From assembly GCF_008041935.1 (NCBI RefSeq), contig NZ_VKAC01000002.1, positions 248,001-312,000 of the forward strand: a DNA stretch of 64,000 bases. The letters run 5' to 3'. The stretch is from Quadrisphaera setariae (GTDB lineage: Bacteria > Actinomycetota > Actinomycetes > Actinomycetales > Quadrisphaeraceae). Shown here piece after piece: positions 11,799 to 19,405 of this stretch (positions are counted from its first letter, which is position 1; each line of letters begins with the position of its first letter). The notes below the pieces were generated by a model that did no database searches, was not told the DNA's origin, and was given only the letters and a program-made list of their open reading frames with translations. Both the position numbers and the translations under genes were made by a program.

Positions 11799-12590
11799 TC
11801 AGCTCTTGGGGCCGACGTGCTCGTCGAGGATCGCCACGGATGCCTTGCGCGCCACGGAGACCACGTCGCGCCGTGGGTGCGTGTGGGCGACGCCCAGCCG
11901 GTCGAGGGCGGCGCAGCAGATGCTGATGATGTCGGCAGGGGCGTTGCTGAAGAGGTAGCGCGGGTACCCCTCGTAGCGCTGCCCGTTGGCGCCGATCGCC
12001 CAGTTCTGCACGCGGCAGCCGTCGCTGTGGAACAGGCCGCGCAGCAGCCGCCCGGGGTGCTCGTCGACGATGTTCTGCTGCCACGGCTCCAGCACGACGG
12101 GGCGGTCGTGCTTGTGGCCCTCCCCGTGCTGGGGGAGCAAGCAGGGCCAGTGGTGCCACGAGGCGCTGATGGCGCTGCAGCCCTTGAGGCGGCGCCGCCA
12201 GACGCTCGTGCCCGGCTGCACCGCCTTGATGGACGCCTCGACCTCGTCGTTCAGCGCGGGGTACCGATCGTCGTTGTAGATGGACAGCAGCCGCGACGTA
12301 CCGCGCGCGAGCGCGATGTGTCCGTCGCCGAGGTACCAGCCCAGGAGGTGGGCGTACGCGGCTCTGTCGAGCGTTCCGCTCTCGCAGCGCGGGCGAGGGG
12401 CCGATCCGGCGCGGCCCGGGGCGCTGGTCAGCCCCTCACGGCGGATGCGCCTCCGCCACCGCCGGATCGTGTTCACGCAGATGCCGAGCCGGAGCGCGAC
12501 CTGCGCGTCGGTCAGGCCAGCCGCGCGGAGACGGGCTGCTTCCTGCAGGACGGGCCAAGGCGTGGGGGCGGGCACGTGGTGATCGAACAC
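11799..12590 (-). CDS. HTH protein with two LAGLIDADG-like motifs
   Basis: The 263-aa protein has an N-terminal helix-turn-helix resembling transposase/resolvase HTHs (AAGLTDAQVALRLGICVNTIRRWRRRIR, split here as residues 23-50), a basic Pro/Arg linker, then two LAGLIDADG-like helices: LLGWYLGDGH (about 82-91) and LLRGLFHSDG (about 182-191). Between them is a PQHGEGHKHDR segment. This architecture matches freestanding homing-endonuclease-like proteins that are often annotated as transcriptional regulators in actinomycetes. Each LAGLIDADG helix carries an acidic residue (D89, D190), so nuclease activity is possible but unproven. The GTG start lies 29 bp downstream of the 3' end of tRNA-Leu on the same strand, so it may be read through from the tRNA promoter. 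No intron or intein is visible nearby. Confidence 0.75.
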   Translation of the reverse strand: MFDHHVPAPTPWPVLQEAARLRAAGLTDAQVALRLGICVNTIRRWRRRIRREGLTSAPGRAGSAPRPRCESGTLDRAAYAHLLGWYLGDGHIALARGTSRLLSIYNDDRYPALNDEVEASIKAVQPGTSVWRRRLKGCSAISASWHHWPCLLPQHGEGHKHDRPVVLEPWQQNIVDEHPGRLLRGLFHSDGCRVQNWAIGANGQRYEGYPRYLFSNAPADIISICCAALDRLGVAHTHPRRDVVSVARKASVAILDEHVGPKS

Positions 12591-12619
12591 GCGGCCACTG
12601 ACAGCGCCCGGGGGATGTG

Positions 12620-12703
12620 TGCCGGGTGCGGGACTCGAACCCGCACGCCCTTTCGGGCAGAGACTTTTGAGATCTCGGTGTCTGCCTGTTCCACCAACCC
12701 GGC
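12620..12703 (-). tRNA. tRNA-Leu (anticodon CAA)
   Basis: The minus strand folds as an 84-nt class II tRNA. The acceptor stem pairs GCCGGGT with ACCCGGC plus discriminator A. The anticodon stem GAGAT/GTCTC encloses the loop CTCAAAA, giving anticodon CAA (reads UUG). There is a long variable arm, and the T arm contains GGTTCGAGTCC. CCA is not encoded. The gene is intact and has no intron. Confidence 0.95.
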
Positions 12704-12745
12704 GGTGAGGGCACGACCTTCGTCAGGACCCCACTCCACGACCAC

Positions 12746-12751
12746 TAAAGT
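12746..12751 (+). promoter_or_regulatory. -10 box of the pdtaR-like gene, leaderless start predicted
   Basis: TAAAGT ends 7 nt before the GTG at 12759. No Shine-Dalgarno sequence is present. Confidence 0.55.
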
Positions 12752-12758
12752 ACCGGTC

Positions 12759-13370
12759 GTGAGCGAGCAGGGTACCCAGGCGGAGCCGGGCGCGGGGCCG
12801 CGTCGGCGCGTCGTCGTCGCGGAGGACGAGGCGATCATCCGCCTCGACGTCGTCGAGATCCTCCGTGAGGCGGGCTACGACGTGGTCGGAGAGGCCGGTG
12901 ACGGCGAGAGCGCCGTCCGCCTCGTCGAGGAGCTGCAGCCCGACCTGGTGGTCATGGACGTGAAGATGCCCGTCCTGGACGGCATCAGCGCCGCCGAGCG
13001 CATCGGCAAGGCGCGTCTGGCGCCCGTCGTCCTCCTGACGGCGTTCTCCCAGCGCGAGCTGGTGGACCGCGCCCGTGACGCCGGCGCCATGGCCTACGTG
13101 GTCAAGCCCTTCACCTCCGCGGACCTGCTGCCCGCCGTCGAGATCGCCGTCTCCCGCTTCCAGGAGATCGCCGACCTCGAGGAGGAGGTCGCCGACCTCA
13201 CCGAGCGCTTCGAGACCCGCAAGCGCGTCGAGCGGGCCAAGGGCCTGCTCATGACCCGCATGGGGCTCTCCGAGCCCGAGGCGTTCCGCTGGATCCAGAA
13301 GACCTCCATGGACCGCCGGCTGACGATGCGCGAGGTCGCCGACGCGGTGCTGAGCCAGGTCAGCAGCTGA
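12759..13370 (+). CDS. pdtaR: ANTAR-domain response regulator, PdtaR type
   Basis: RNA-binding antiterminator output of a two-component system; in mycobacteria PdtaR is phosphorylated by PdtaS and binds RNA hairpins. The 203-aa protein has a receiver domain with acidic pocket E22/D23, phosphoacceptor D67 (VVMDVKMP), T94 and K116 (VVKPF). A coiled-coil linker (about 130-145) leads to a C-terminal ANTAR domain with KRVERAKGLLMTRMGLSEPEAF and WIQKTSM. I chose the GTG at 12759 because it follows a -10 box and gives a short tail before the receiver domain. No pdtaS-like kinase gene is in the window. It is divergent from tRNA-Leu. Confidence 0.92.
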   Translation: MSEQGTQAEPGAGPRRRVVVAEDEAIIRLDVVEILREAGYDVVGEAGDGESAVRLVEELQPDLVVMDVKMPVLDGISAAERIGKARLAPVVLLTAFSQRELVDRARDAGAMAYVVKPFTSADLLPAVEIAVSRFQEIADLEEEVADLTERFETRKRVERAKGLLMTRMGLSEPEAFRWIQKTSMDRRLTMREVADAVLSQVSS

Positions 13371-13586: not shown

Positions 13587-14894
13587 ATGATCCGATCCCT
13601 GCGCGGAGCCGGCGCCTTCGCCGTGCTCGGCGTCGCCTCCCTCACCCTGGCCGCGTGCGGCGGCGGCAGCAGCGACCCCGCTGCCACGTCCGCAGCGCCG
13701 GCCAGCTCCGACGCCTCCGCGAGCAGCACCGCGGGCACGGAGCAGGCCCCGGTCGAGCCCGGTGACGGCACGCTGACCATCGGCACGCTGCTCCCGCAGA
13801 CCGGTTCCCTCGCCTTCCTCGGTCCGCCGGAGTTCGCCGGCGTGCAGCTGGCCCTCAACGACATCAACGCCGCCGGTGGCTACAACGGCAAGGACGTCGT
13901 CTACAACCAGACGGACTCCGGCGACACGACCACCAACATCGCCTCGCAGTCGGTCGACCGCCTGATCGCCGCGAAGACCGACGCCATCATCGGCGCCGCC
14001 TCCTCGGGCGTCTCCAAGACCGTCATCGACGCCATCACCGGCGCCGGCGTCATCCAGGTCAGCCCGGCCAACACCTCGCCGGACTTCACCGACTACCCCG
14101 ACCGCGGCCTCTACTGGCGCACGGCGCCGTCCGACGTGCTCCAGGGCCGCGTCATGGGCGACCTGCTCCTGCAGGACAACCACCTCGACGTCGCGACCAT
14201 CACGCTGGACGACCCGTACGGCTCCGGCCTGCAGTCGAACATCCAGAAGTCGCTCGAGGCCGGCGGCGGCAAGATCGTGGCGAACAAGGTGTTCAACCCC
14301 GACGCCGCGACCTTCGACTCGATCGCCTCCGAGGTGTCCGCCGCCAAGCCCGAGGCCGTCGTGGTCATCGGCTTCGAGCAGACCGTCCAGATCATCCAGG
14401 CGATGATCGCCCAGGGCATCGGCCCGGACAAGATGCCGATCTACTTCGTCGACGGCAACCTGGCCGACTACTCGACCGACTTCCCGGCCGGCACGCTGAA
14501 GGGCGTCAAGGGCACCCTGCCCGGCGCGAAGACCAGCGACGACTTCCGCCAGCGGCTGCTGCAGGTGGACCCGAAGCTGACCGACTTCAGCTACGCCCCC
14601 GAGTCCTACGACGCGACCGTGCTCGTGGCGCTGGCCGCGGCCGCCGCCAAGGACGACAGCGGCACCGCCGTCGCTTCCAAGATGCAGGAGGTCTCCGAGG
14701 GCGGCACCAAGTGCACCGCCTACAAGGAGTGCCTGGACCTGCTGAACGCCGGCACGGACATCGACTACGACGGCTTCTCCGGCCCGATCGACTTCAGCGC
14801 CAAGGGTGACCCCACCAAGGCGACGATCGGCATCTACCAGTACGGCGACGACAACAAGTACACCAACGTCGACTACATCACCGGCTCCCTGTGA
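13587..14894 (+). CDS. Branched-chain amino-acid-type ABC importer, substrate-binding lipoprotein
   Basis: Extracellular binding protein of the LivK type (Peripla_BP_6 fold), anchored by lipid. The 435-aa product starts MIRSLRGAGAF, with a signal peptide ending in a lipobox (L21-A-A-C24), followed by an Ala/Ser-rich linker of about 30 residues and the mature domain (GTLLPQTGSLAFLGPPEFAG). A good GAGAGG ribosome binding site precedes ATG 13587 by 6 nt. The matching permease and ATPase genes lie immediately downstream on the opposite strand, tail to tail, an uncommon arrangement for one transporter. The true substrate cannot be read from the sequence; branched-chain amino acids are an inference from the family. 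Confidence 0.88.
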   Translation: MIRSLRGAGAFAVLGVASLTLAACGGGSSDPAATSAAPASSDASASSTAGTEQAPVEPGDGTLTIGTLLPQTGSLAFLGPPEFAGVQLALNDINAAGGYNGKDVVYNQTDSGDTTTNIASQSVDRLIAAKTDAIIGAASSGVSKTVIDAITGAGVIQVSPANTSPDFTDYPDRGLYWRTAPSDVLQGRVMGDLLLQDNHLDVATITLDDPYGSGLQSNIQKSLEAGGGKIVANKVFNPDAATFDSIASEVSAAKPEAVVVIGFEQTVQIIQAMIAQGIGPDKMPIYFVDGNLADYSTDFPAGTLKGVKGTLPGAKTSDDFRQRLLQVDPKLTDFSYAPESYDATVLVALAAAAAKDDSGTAVASKMQEVSEGGTKCTAYKECLDLLNAGTDIDYDGFSGPIDFSAKGDPTKATIGIYQYGDDNKYTNVDYITGSL

Positions 14895-15200: not shown

Positions 15201-15980
15201 TCAGTTCTTGGCGAGCGTGCCCAGGTAGAGCTCGATGACCTTCGGGTCGTTCGCGAGGTCGCGACCGGTGCCCGTGTAGGCGTTGCGACCCTGGTCCAGC
15301 ACGTAGGCGCGGTCGCAGATCTGCAGGCACCGCGCGGCGTTCTGCTCGACCATGACCACGGACGTGCCGGTCTTGTTGATCTGGCGGGTGCGCAGGAACA
15401 CCTCGTCCTGCATGGCGGGTGACAGGCCCGCGCTGGGCTCGTCGAGCAGCAGCACCGACGGGTCCATCATGAGGGCCCGGCCCATCGCCACCATCTGGCG
15501 CTCACCGCCGGACAGGGACCCGGCGCGCTGGGCCCGCCGGGTGCCGAGGGCGGGGAACAGCTCCGTGACCACGTCGAACCGCTCCTTGAAGCGGTTCGGC
15601 GCCTGGTAGCAGCCCATCTGGAGGTTCTCCTCGATGGTCAGCGACGGGAAGACGTTGTTGTTCTGCGGCACGAAGCCGACGCCCTGCCGCACGAGGCGGT
15701 CGGCGCGCAGCCCGGTGATCTCCTCGCCCTTGAGCCTCACGCTCCCGGAACGGATCTTCACCAGGCCGAACAGCGCCTTGAGGAAGGTGGACTTCCCGGC
15801 GCCGTTGGGGCCGATGATGCCGACCAGCTCACCCTCGTGGCAGTACAGGTCGGTGCCGTTGAGGATGTTCACCCCGGGGAAGTACCCGGCCACCAGCTCG
15901 TCGGAGCGCAGCACGGCCCCTTCGGCGGCGGCGACGTGCACCGACCGGTCCTGGATGGTCGTGGCCCCCGCGCCGCTCAT
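15201..15980 (-). CDS. livF: Branched-chain amino-acid-type ABC importer ATPase LivF
   Basis: Second nucleotide-binding subunit of the high-affinity importer. The 259-aa product has Walker A GPNGAGKST, a Q-loop VGFVPQNNNVFPSLTI, the ABC signature LSGGERQ, Walker B VLLLDEPSAG and the H-loop region VVMVEQNA, in which glutamine-asparagine replaces the switch histidine as usual in LivF. The start ATG overlaps the livG stop as ATGA, so translation is coupled. It is the last gene of the minus-strand livH-livM-livG-livF operon. Confidence 0.93.
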   Translation of the reverse strand: MSGAGATTIQDRSVHVAAAEGAVLRSDELVAGYFPGVNILNGTDLYCHEGELVGIIGPNGAGKSTFLKALFGLVKIRSGSVRLKGEEITGLRADRLVRQGVGFVPQNNNVFPSLTIEENLQMGCYQAPNRFKERFDVVTELFPALGTRRAQRAGSLSGGERQMVAMGRALMMDPSVLLLDEPSAGLSPAMQDEVFLRTRQINKTGTSVVMVEQNAARCLQICDRAYVLDQGRNAYTGTGRDLANDPKVIELYLGTLAKN

Positions 15981-16957
15981 GCTCGGCCGCCCTTCGCGTC
16001 GTCGTCGCTGTGCTCGGCGGCGATCTCCGCCTCGACCTCGGCCTCGACGGCCCTCTCCAGCGCCTCCGCGGCGGAGTCGTCGGCGAGGGAGACGTCGTGG
16101 TGGCCGCCGAGGTAGGCCTCGATGACGGCGGGATCGGCCATGACGGAGTCCGGCGGGCCCTCCGCGACGACCTTGCCCTGCGCCATGACGACCACCCAGT
16201 CGGCGATGTCGCGGACCATGTCCATGTCGTGCTCGACGAAGAGCACCGTCATGCCCTGCTCGCGCAGGTCCTTGACGTGGCCCAGCAGCGACTGCGTCAG
16301 CGCGGGGTTCACCCCGGCCATCGGCTCGTCGAGCATGACCACCTGCGGGTCGCTCATGAGCGCCCGGGCCATCTCGAGGAGCTTGCGCTGGCCGCCGGAG
16401 AGGCTGCCGGCGAAGTCGTCGGCCTTCGTGTCGAGCTTGAAGCGTCCGAGGAGCTCCATGGCGCGCTCGGTGTTGGCCTTCTCCTGGCTGCGCCAGGTGC
16501 CGGCGAACGCCGCGCGCAGCAGGCTCTCGCCCTTCTGGCCGGAGGCGCCCAGCAGCATGTTCTGCATCACCGTCAGGCGCGAGAGCGCCTTGGTGAGCTG
16601 GAACGTGCGGACCATGCCGCGCCGGGCCACCTTGTGGGCGGGCACCCGCGCCAGGTCCGTCCCGTCGAACGACCACTTCCCCTCGTCCGGCCTGTCGAAG
16701 CCGGTCAGCAGGTTGAAGAACGTGGTCTTGCCGGCGCCGTTGGGCCCGATCAGCGCGGTGATCGCACCGCGCTGGACCTCCACGTGGTCGACGGACACGG
16801 CGGCGAGGCCGCCGAAGCGGCGCACCACGCCGTCGGCGACGAGCACCGGGTCCGGCTTCTCAGCCCCGGGCACGCGGGGGACGTCGGCCAGCGCGCGCGT
16901 CGCGGCCTGCTTGCGAGTGCCCTCTGCCGCAGCAGGGGCGGTCGTGTCACCGGCCAT
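15977..16957 (-). CDS. livG: Branched-chain amino-acid-type ABC importer ATPase LivG
   Basis: First nucleotide-binding subunit. The 326-aa protein carries Walker A GPNGAGKTT, GMVRTFQLTKALSRLT (Q-loop), signature LSGGQRK, Walker B VVMLDEPMAG and switch EHDMD, followed by the LivG-type extension around VIEAYLGG. It is longer than a standard LivG (about 255 aa) because of a roughly 35-residue N-terminal tail and an acidic 40-residue C-terminal tail. It overlaps livM by 11 bp and livF by 4 bp. Confidence 0.93.
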   Translation of the reverse strand: MAGDTTAPAAAEGTRKQAATRALADVPRVPGAEKPDPVLVADGVVRRFGGLAAVSVDHVEVQRGAITALIGPNGAGKTTFFNLLTGFDRPDEGKWSFDGTDLARVPAHKVARRGMVRTFQLTKALSRLTVMQNMLLGASGQKGESLLRAAFAGTWRSQEKANTERAMELLGRFKLDTKADDFAGSLSGGQRKLLEMARALMSDPQVVMLDEPMAGVNPALTQSLLGHVKDLREQGMTVLFVEHDMDMVRDIADWVVVMAQGKVVAEGPPDSVMADPAVIEAYLGGHHDVSLADDSAAEALERAVEAEVEAEIAAEHSDDDAKGGRA

Positions 16958-17936
16958 CGAGAGCCAGCTCCCTCCGGTCGCCGAAGATGCCTTGCGGCCT
17001 GTAGATCATGAGCAGCATGAGCGCGAGCCCCACCAGCATGAACCGGACCTGGCCGACCTGCGTGGTCGACATGAGCCCGTCGGGGATCCAGCCCTCGGCG
17101 ATGGCGCCGCGCAGGACGCCGTCGGTGAGGGACAGCACCACCCAGAAGATCGCCGCGCCGACCACGGGGCCGAGCACGCGGGCGGCGCCGCCGAGCAGCA
17201 GCACGGTGTAGGCGAAGAACGTGAAGGCGGTGGCGTAGTTGTCGGGCTGGACCGCCGCGCGACCCACCGAGAACACGAAGCCCGCCAGGGTGCCCACGAG
17301 GCCCCCCAGGACGAGCGCCTGCATCTTGTACGCGTAGACGTTCTTGCCGAGGGCGCGCACGGCGTCCTCGTCCTCGCGGATGCCCTTGAGCACGCGCCCC
17401 CACGGGCTGCGCATGAGCGCCCAGGTGACCAGCGCGACGAACGCGACCAGCAGCCAGCCGACGAGCAGGACCCACGTGGTCCGCTCGTTGTTCTGCCACG
17501 GGCCGAAGCCGTACGTGCCCTGGGGGAACGGGTTCATGGCGTAGAAGTCGTCGGCGAAGCCGGTGAGGCCGTTGGAGCCGCCGGTGTAGGCGCCCAGGCT
17601 GTTCGACCGCGCCAGCAGGCGCACCACCTCGGAGGCCGCGATGGTGGCGATGGCGAGGTAGTCGGCTCGCAGCCGCAGCGTGGGGACGCCGAGCAGCAGC
17701 GCGAAGACCACCGAGCCGAGGAGGCCGACGAGCACGCCCACCCAGAAGGGCAGCCCGGCGATGCTCACGATGCTGGCGATGCCGTAGGAGCCGATGGCCA
17801 CGAACGCGGCCTGGCCGAAGTTCAGCAGGCCCGCGTAGCCGAACTGGATGTTCAGGCCGAGCGCCGCGAGGGCGTAGATGACGGTGTCGAGGCCGATCGC
17901 CGCGGCGAGGGCGTTGTTGAGGATGGAGATGTCCAT
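16947..17936 (-). CDS. livM: Branched-chain amino-acid-type ABC importer permease LivM
   Basis: Membrane subunit of the importer, 329 aa with about eight to ten hydrophobic helices. Family signatures are LNIQFGYAGLLNFGQAAFVAIG near the N terminus (shown over two helices) and the coupling region WGRVLKGIREDEDAVRALGKN, which contacts the ATPase. A GAGAGG ribosome binding site lies 5 nt before the ATG. It is 9 bp after livH and overlaps livG. Confidence 0.92.
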   Translation of the reverse strand: MDISILNNALAAAIGLDTVIYALAALGLNIQFGYAGLLNFGQAAFVAIGSYGIASIVSIAGLPFWVGVLVGLLGSVVFALLLGVPTLRLRADYLAIATIAASEVVRLLARSNSLGAYTGGSNGLTGFADDFYAMNPFPQGTYGFGPWQNNERTTWVLLVGWLLVAFVALVTWALMRSPWGRVLKGIREDEDAVRALGKNVYAYKMQALVLGGLVGTLAGFVFSVGRAAVQPDNYATAFTFFAYTVLLLGGAARVLGPVVGAAIFWVVLSLTDGVLRGAIAEGWIPDGLMSTTQVGQVRFMLVGLALMLLMIYRPQGIFGDRRELALDGR

Positions 17937-17945
17937 GGTGGCCTC

Positions 17946-19322
17946 TCAGCCGATCCGCTGGGCGCGGCCGAGGATGCCCTGGGGCCGCACGAGCAGGATG
18001 AGGATCAGGATGACGAGCGCGCCCAGGTTCTGGAGCTCCGTCGGGATGACCAGCGTGGAGATCTCGACGAACAGCCCCACGATGAGCGACCCGAGCACGG
18101 CGCCGAACGCCGTGCCGAGACCGCCGAGGGTGACCGCCGCGAACACCAGCAGCAGGATCTGGAAACCCATCTGGAAGCTGATGCCCTGCTGCAGGCCCAG
18201 CACCACGCCGGACAGGCCCGCCAGGGCCGACCCGACGATCCACACGGTGCGGATGACCCTGTCCACGTCGATGCCGGAGGCCGAGGCGAGGGCCGGGTTG
18301 TCGGCCACCGCGCGGGTGGCCTTGCCCAGACGGGTCTTCACCAGCGCCAGGGCCACGACCACCAGGACGACGACGGACAGGCCCATCGTCCACAGGTCCA
18401 GCGGACGCAGCAGCACCCCGGGGAGCACCTGGACGCCCGCCTGGCCGGCGTAGCCCGGGAAGGTGCGCACGCCGCCGCCGAAGAGGTAGAGGTAGAAGTA
18501 GCGCAGGAACAGCGAGAGGCCGATCGACACGATCATCATGGCGATGAGCCCGGTGCCGCGGCGCCGCAGCGGCTGCCAGAGCACCCTGTCGTTGAGGTAG
18601 CCGAAGACCGCGCAGCTCACCAGCCCGAGGGCCGCGGCGAGGAGGAACGGCAGCCCGGCGACCGCCGTGTACAGGTAGGTGGTGAGCGCACCGAGGGTGA
18701 TGAGCTCGGAGTGGGCGAAGTTGGTCAGGCCCGTCGTGCCGAAGATGAGCGACAGGCCGATGGCGCCCAGGGCGATGACCAGGCCGAAGCGCAGGCCCGT
18801 CGCGATGCGCTGCAGGACCTGGCTGCTGGAGGCGCCGCCGGCGGCCTCGTCGCTGCCGGGCTCGGACAGGCGGAACGCCACGGTGCGGCCCAGGCCCTCC
18901 TGCACGGTGGTGGCGATGGTGTCGCTGCGCGGCTCCAGGCCCTTGGCCGCCGAGGGCAGGGAGGCGACGTCGAGCTTGACCTGGTAGTCGCCGGGAGAGG
19001 GGGCAGCCAGCGCGGCGGTGCCGCGGTCGTCGGTCTCCGCGGTGGCGACCTGCTGGCCGCCCTGCAGCAGCTGCACCGTGGCGCCGGGCACGTCCTCACC
19101 GTCGCCGGTGCGGACCCTGACGTTGATGGACAGCCCGCTCGCCGCGGCGCCGTCACCCGCGCTGGCCGAGGGGTCGGCAGCGGACGGGCTCGCCGAGGGC
19201 GAGGCGGCAGCTGTGGCCGGTGCTGCGCCGGCGACGCCGACGACCAGGACGGCCAGCAGTGCTGCCGCGGCGAGCACGAGGCCCAGGAGCACCTGGGCTG
19301 CTCGTCGGGGTGTTCTCCGCAC
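17946..19322 (-). CDS. livH: LivH-type permease with an N-terminal extracytoplasmic domain
   Basis: The C-terminal ~290 residues are a normal LivH permease (GLSLIFGTTGLTNFAHSELI; coupling segment TRAVADNPALASASGID). Ahead of them is an extra part of about 165 residues: a signal-like hydrophobic helix (about 8-33), an Ala/Pro/Ser linker, and a roughly 90-residue beta-rich domain with VPGATVQL, ETDDRGTAAL and PGDYQVKLD, features of carboxypeptidase-regulatory or SpaA/Ig-like sandwiches. A second linker joins it to the permease. I chose GTG 19322 because GGAGG lies 8 nt before it; an in-frame TTG at 19337 overlaps that GGAGG. The domain should sit outside the membrane and might meet the binding protein; that is inference. 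Confidence 0.88.
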   Translation of the reverse strand: MRRTPRRAAQVLLGLVLAAAALLAVLVVGVAGAAPATAAASPSASPSAADPSASAGDGAAASGLSINVRVRTGDGEDVPGATVQLLQGGQQVATAETDDRGTAALAAPSPGDYQVKLDVASLPSAAKGLEPRSDTIATTVQEGLGRTVAFRLSEPGSDEAAGGASSSQVLQRIATGLRFGLVIALGAIGLSLIFGTTGLTNFAHSELITLGALTTYLYTAVAGLPFLLAAALGLVSCAVFGYLNDRVLWQPLRRRGTGLIAMMIVSIGLSLFLRYFYLYLFGGGVRTFPGYAGQAGVQVLPGVLLRPLDLWTMGLSVVVLVVVALALVKTRLGKATRAVADNPALASASGIDVDRVIRTVWIVGSALAGLSGVVLGLQQGISFQMGFQILLLVFAAVTLGGLGTAFGAVLGSLIVGLFVEISTLVIPTELQNLGALVILILILLVRPQGILGRAQRIG

Positions 19323-19405
19323 GGTGCGGACCTCCAAGGGGTGTGGCGCGGGTGGTGCACCGCACGTCGTCGTGGGGGCACACAGCCTGTCGTCAGGGGC
19401 GGGCG

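Follow-up and report, generated by a model that had tools for sequence, protein, structure and literature searches.

The window analysed here is a stretch of 64,000 nucleotides from the actinobacterium Quadrisphaera setariae. It contains a set of genes for an ABC importer of the branched-chain-amino-acid type, laid out as follows:

13587..14894, plus strand: lipoprotein substrate-binding protein (Peripla_BP_6), tail-to-tail with livF; lipobox read from the sequence
15201..15980, minus strand: livF-like ATPase gene (ABC_tran)
15977..16957, minus strand: livG-like ATPase gene, assigned from the ORF and its collinearity with livH, livM and livF in other loci
16947..17936, minus strand: livM-like permease partner, lacking an N-terminal extension
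17946..19322, minus strand: livH-like permease gene, GTG start, 458 amino acids, with BPD_transp_2 at residues 173-443
19330..19335, minus strand: Shine-Dalgarno-like GGAGGT, 7 bases upstream of the GTG at 19322

Among the best 80 of 564 loci, livH, livM, livG and livF are collinear in 76 and incomplete in 4. Of the same best 80 of 564, where the ends of the loci limit the counts, 66 have a gene for the binding protein (65 of them on the opposite strand), 37 have polA (33 opposite), 30 a thioesterase (29 on the same strand) and 18 a pdtaR-like gene (12 opposite). In the window the transporter genes are flanked by a response regulator gene at 12726-13370 on the plus strand, presumably pdtaR/ANTAR-like. 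A tRNA-Leu gene with a CAA anticodon (12619-12703, minus strand) adjoins an ORF at 11799-12590 on the same strand, which has an N-terminal helix-turn-helix (HTH_23) and a remainder that looks LAGLIDADG-like by eye only. None of the RNA families searched in the window reached its gathering score.

The livH gene reads from 19322 down to 17946; the preliminary description had these coordinates right and gave no strand. It had also named a start near residue 165, at the permease helix, as the alternative to an N-terminal extension, and this was looked for and not found. No ATG, GTG or TTG codon occurs between livH residues 149 and 199 in the window, and GTG148, the last possible start before the permease, has an AGGAGG only about 14 bases upstream. 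A longer alternative, the TTG at 19337, overlaps the GGAGGT ribosome site. Across the 119 domain-bearing loci, a Shine-Dalgarno-preceded start codon lies upstream of the domain in 104; near the permease helix, some ATG, GTG or TTG is present in 93, and it is Shine-Dalgarno-preceded in only 7. A translation start near the permease was rejected on these grounds. The pairwise matches with 18 other domain-bearing loci (L003-L020) begin at query residues 1-20 in 16 of them and at residues 28 and 45 in the other two; for L021-L024 the match covers the permease only, the domain being detected by profile. The G+C content of the domain by codon position 1/2/3 is 0.75/0.54/0.97. As far as the sequence can tell, the N-terminal extension of LivH is predicted to be translated. 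A second LivH close to this one was not found in the genome; a further match, located on contig C1, is weak (29% identity, E 5e-5).

The encoded protein can be divided into five parts, all on the minus strand:

19203..19322: predicted Sec signal peptide, residues 1-40, with a charged start, a hydrophobic core and an Ala-rich end placed by eye
19137..19202: Pro/Ala/Ser linker, residues 41-62, predicted disordered (residues 31-62 have pLDDT <50)
18858..19136: transthyretin-like beta-sandwich domain (CarboxypepD_reg, PF13620), residues 63-155, from Pfam, structure prediction and structural matches
18828..18857: short connector, residues 156-165, from the AlphaFold2 model
17949..18827: BtuC-like permease core, residues 166-458, with nine predicted membrane helices read from the model

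We regard this overall anatomy as almost certain. Searches against Pfam place a CarboxypepD_reg match at residues 65-151; it scores 32.4 bits with the full protein, just over the gathering cut-off of 32.3 bits, 34.8 bits with residues 1-174 and 36.3 bits with the domain alone, and 66 of the 67 aligned domains match the same family at E 0.01. The full-length AlphaFold2 model, built with 20 orthologs, has a mean pLDDT of 80.6: values of 28-68 over residues 1-60, a disordered linker, strands spanning residues 65-153 in a domain with pLDDT near 90, and the permease helix from residue 166. Predicted on its own from 67 sequences, the domain forms seven strands with pLDDT 91.1 and pTM 0.82. Its best structural matches are UafA (Z 11.9, rmsd 2.3, 85 residues), CnaB2 (8bdw; Z 11.5, rmsd 2.4, 90 residues), SdrD (Z 11.5, rmsd 2.5, 92 residues) and carboxypeptidase D (1qmu; Z 10.4, rmsd 2.2, 83 residues). 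On these models the domain is predicted to adopt the transthyretin-like/CnaB fold. The preliminary description had proposed a signal-like helix, a linker and a folded domain of CarboxypepD_reg or SpaA type ahead of a normal LivH; the Pfam match and the predicted structure confirm that arrangement, the structural matches agree with the guess at the family, and the absence of any domain-like fold, which it had named as the adverse outcome, was not what the prediction returned.

The best-conserved among the well-filled sites of the domain are G101, L122, Y113, F150, D118 and P123. Most of the best-conserved positions, namely G101, Y113 and F150 along with G80 and G89, are of the kind expected of a fold. 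D118, L122 and P123 (conserved in 61/67, 64/67 and 59/65, respectively) lie in the turn after strand 5, and this set is a possible candidate for a contact site. Among the 67 aligned domains, T97, D98 and D118 are the only polar columns conserved at 60% or more. CnaB isopeptide domains are defined by a conserved lysine and an Asn/Asp that form an intramolecular bond; here no more than 13 of the 67 domains share a lysine in any one of the 86 well-filled columns, and an isopeptide domain of this type was rejected for want of the conserved lysine.

We then considered the side of the membrane on which the domain resides. The permease superimposes on BtuC (1l7v) with Z 16.1 and rmsd 3.9 over 247 residues, with the model from residue 162 onward corresponding to BtuC from residue 36 onward. 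Because the match begins at BtuC residue 36, the first helix of BtuC, which we take to be the residues ahead of the matched part, would have no counterpart in the permease core. The nine helices, with the arginine-bearing C-terminus taken as cytoplasmic, would place the N-terminus of the permease outside, and an outside-facing N-terminus would in turn explain the presence of a signal peptide. Along similar lines, PMC3098086 describes UrtB, a relative, as lacking the N-terminal helix of the crystallised ten-helix permeases.

The signal features recur across 127 rows, among them three signal-only proteins and rows from four duplicate genomes: 122 have a net positive start, 126 a hydrophobic core and 117 an Ala-x-Ala after the core, the last of these being found at 169 of 864 control helix ends. 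Between a point just ahead of the domain and the permease, 101 of 119 loci have no cysteine and 16 have two; the remaining two loci have a single cysteine, placed by eye inside the signal core. Since 11 of the 16 two-cysteine loci belong to Nonomuraea or a near relative, they represent few independent events. The paired cysteines fit disulfides formed outside the cell in some lineages. Taken together, the BtuC alignment, the signal features and the cysteine pattern make it very probable that the domain is located outside the membrane, in line with the extracytoplasmic, permease-tethered domain of the preliminary description. As the connector is only 10 residues long, the domain would lie near the mouth of the channel.

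The same architecture is widespread in actinobacteria and is not an oddity of one genome. A search of 59 near genomes, counting the window's own, gave a match at E 1e-30 in 28 (at most 28 candidates scored per genome); 23 of these carry the domain, 3 are signal-only (L025-L027) and 2 have plain LivH alone. Among 198 genomes of the phylum, 33 have a match at E 1e-60 (at most 8 candidates per genome), comprising 24 with the domain (one of them weak, at 14.4 bits), 1 signal-only (G183), 7 without the domain and 1 truncated where its contig ends. Three genomes (G000, G013 and G017) are common to both samples. All 80 named loci carry the domain, this being a biased set, namely the best 80 of 564 that were confirmed through their likeness to a query which itself has the domain; they include Nonomuraea, Actinoplanes, Arthrobacter, Microbacterium, Cryobacterium and Ilumatobacter. 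A congeneric genome, G002, gives no LivH match at E 1e-30, and its LivM matches are all weak, the best having E 5e-18 and 29% identity; the operon seems to be missing there. The permease was found at E 1e-50 in 1 of the 61 genomes of the family to which G183 belongs. Beyond Actinomycetota the search covered plasmids, where 2 of the 204 matching records cover at least 80% of the query, both of them actinobacterial.

A quick tree of 135 permease cores was made without bootstrap, has unsure long branches, and leaves out L025 and four duplicates. It puts 120 domain-bearing and 3 signal-only rows on one side of a branch with 100% SH-aLRT and 12 plain LivH proteins outside it. Together with the spread, this rules out a recent fusion peculiar to this genome. 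On the same tree the LivH of L109, a metagenome bin titled Bifidobacterium breve, groups with Candidatus Planktophila, the title being probably misassigned. The domain label requires at least two changes on the tree, most simply read as a single gain followed by at least one loss; the loss falls in the L026/L027 lineage, where the signal peptide was kept. The L026/L027 loss is the only one well placed, and the warning over long branches touches this group too. The row for G183 sits at a basal fork of the clade that the tree leaves unresolved, where it could represent a second loss or the primitive state; the domain may never have been there. At that locus (L148) a domain-like stretch upstream of LivH runs through stop codons, and G183 is accordingly counted as signal-only.

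Four genomes thus have signal-only orthologs (L025, L026, L027 and G183, the signal of L025 being judged by eye). In the regions around L026, L027 and L025 (L146, L147 and L149, respectively), polA, the thioesterase, livHMGF, the binding protein and the pdtaR-like gene are all in place. As three of the four signal-only genomes keep the whole gene neighbourhood, the domain is best regarded as an accessory of the transporter. Its rate of change points to loose constraint. In comparisons with the two nearest orthologs, the domain has dN/dS ratios of 0.079 and 0.215 where the permease has 0.061 and 0.053; with five orthologs further away, the ratios span 0.55 to 1.12 (domain) and 0.09 to 0.40 (permease). 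The ratios for these five were obtained by simple counting, and third positions are 97% G+C, for which reasons they are not read as positive selection. In all seven pairs the dN of the domain is 1.4 to 8.6 times that of the permease. Purifying selection on the domain is clear only for the near pairs; overall it is loosely constrained and evolves fast.

As a whole, these observations are best explained, at somewhat less than an even chance of being right, by a LivH with an outside domain that aids the binding protein. The protein would be the LivH subunit of an actinobacterial ABC importer of the branched-chain-amino-acid type. A Sec-type signal peptide would export the N-terminus and would probably be cleaved, after which the domain would remain attached through the short connector, next to the outer opening of the channel. 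There it may serve as an accessory, steadying the lipid-anchored binding protein or positioning it at the permease, by analogy with MalF-P2 and MalE.

The docking role itself is a tentative proposal, somewhat doubtful, drawn from the position of the domain and the MalF-P2 analogy. The binding-protein gene that accompanies the operon in 66 of the best 80 of 564 loci counts in its favour. We measured the distance covariation of the domain with its partners over 58 loci, having dropped the truncated L050, L053, L063 and L090 and the duplicates L032, L033, L036 and L087. The partial r is 0.03 with the permease core, 0.18 with LivM, 0.32 with LivG and 0.13 with the binding protein, and values as high arose in 280, 0, 0 and 11 of 1000 shuffles, respectively. 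Since the strongest partner is the cytoplasmic LivG, we read these covariations as leftover phylogeny and not as contact; in these 58 loci there is no covariation specific to the binding protein, its r being below those of LivG and LivM. Further points speak against docking: three of the four genomes with a signal-only ortholog keep the binding-protein gene in its usual place, the domain evolves fast, most of its best-conserved positions are of the kind expected of a fold, and MalF-P2 lies between two helices and not at an N-terminus. The docking function offered in the preliminary description is a possibility, for which the covariation signal is weak and not specific. It seems rather unlikely that the full account holds in every part, namely that a cleavable signal peptide sets the topology, that a transthyretin-like arm docks the binding protein, and that an actinobacterial LivH clade acquired this arm a single time, with at least one later loss in which the signal was left behind.

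In the main rival to an arm that aids the binding protein, the signal peptide is the working part, forcing the N-out topology of the first helix, while the domain is only a dispensable soluble spacer or folding aid that was lost in some lineages. This is unlikely, if far from negligible: the signal-like N-terminus persists without the domain in L025-L027 and G183, and the fast evolution of the domain would suit a spacer. However, plain LivH manages without a signal peptide, which is therefore not needed for the fold as such, and of the 123 rows in the clade, 120 carry the domain, although the sampling favours domain-bearing rows.

An improbable alternative is that the domain binds the cell wall or another component of the envelope, thereby anchoring the transporter or holding off the wall. 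Its top structural matches, UafA, SdrD and CnaB2, are indeed surface adhesins and pilins, but similarity of fold shows no function and the leading Pfam match is not a wall-binding family. We likewise give only a small chance to an uncleaved N-terminal stretch that would itself be the missing first helix of BtuC, in which case the first outer loop would contain the domain as an insertion. At about 25 residues by eye the hydrophobic stretch is long for a signal peptide, and BtuC does have residues ahead of the matched part; nevertheless, the stretch is followed by Ala-x-Ala in nearly all rows, and the helix and linker are of low confidence in the model. Sensing or binding of a ligand by the domain is highly improbable, since the three polar columns noted above are the only ones kept, even if PDB titles record transthyretin itself as binding small molecules.

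If the domain of the preferred reading does dock the binding protein, the actinobacteria would supply, in addition to MalF, an example of a permease whose outside domain aids substrate hand-over. The natural signal-only permeases provide a ready comparison set.

Viewed against known systems, the protein shares its permease core and operon partners with LIV-type LivH (PF02653, BPD_transp_2; 129.8 bits against a cut-off of 26.8), to which it adds the signal peptide and a predicted exported domain of about 93 residues. It scores 105.1 of 379 bits with the E. coli LivH equivalog NF008011, and the UrtB urea permease was rejected at 130.2 of 250.3 bits (TIGR03409). As both scores are below the equivalog cut-offs, the substrate is left unassigned. 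Searching PDB sequences with the LivH profile at E 0.01 gave no solved relative of the permease core, the one hit being an SdrD domain. The domain, searched as residues 1-174, shows weak similarity (E 0.0007) to the NikL-type accessory subunit of nickel/cobalt ECF importers (NF058648), at 19.6 of 100 bits far below the cut-off and in another transporter class. A literature search found no functional description of a signal- and domain-bearing LivH permease. The domain has its seven-strand fold in common with carboxypeptidase D, SdrD B and CnaB-type domains (Z 10.4 to 11.9); here it is instead tethered to an ABC permease, with no sign of the CnaB isopeptide bond. MalF-P2 is inserted between two helices rather than N-terminal, and involves another permease fold class and another domain. 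The P2 of MalF likewise adds an outside domain to the permease of an ABC importer, and the P2 loop is reported to interact with MalE. Thus, both parts of the present protein belong to known families, and their combination is a conserved architecture on a known transporter.
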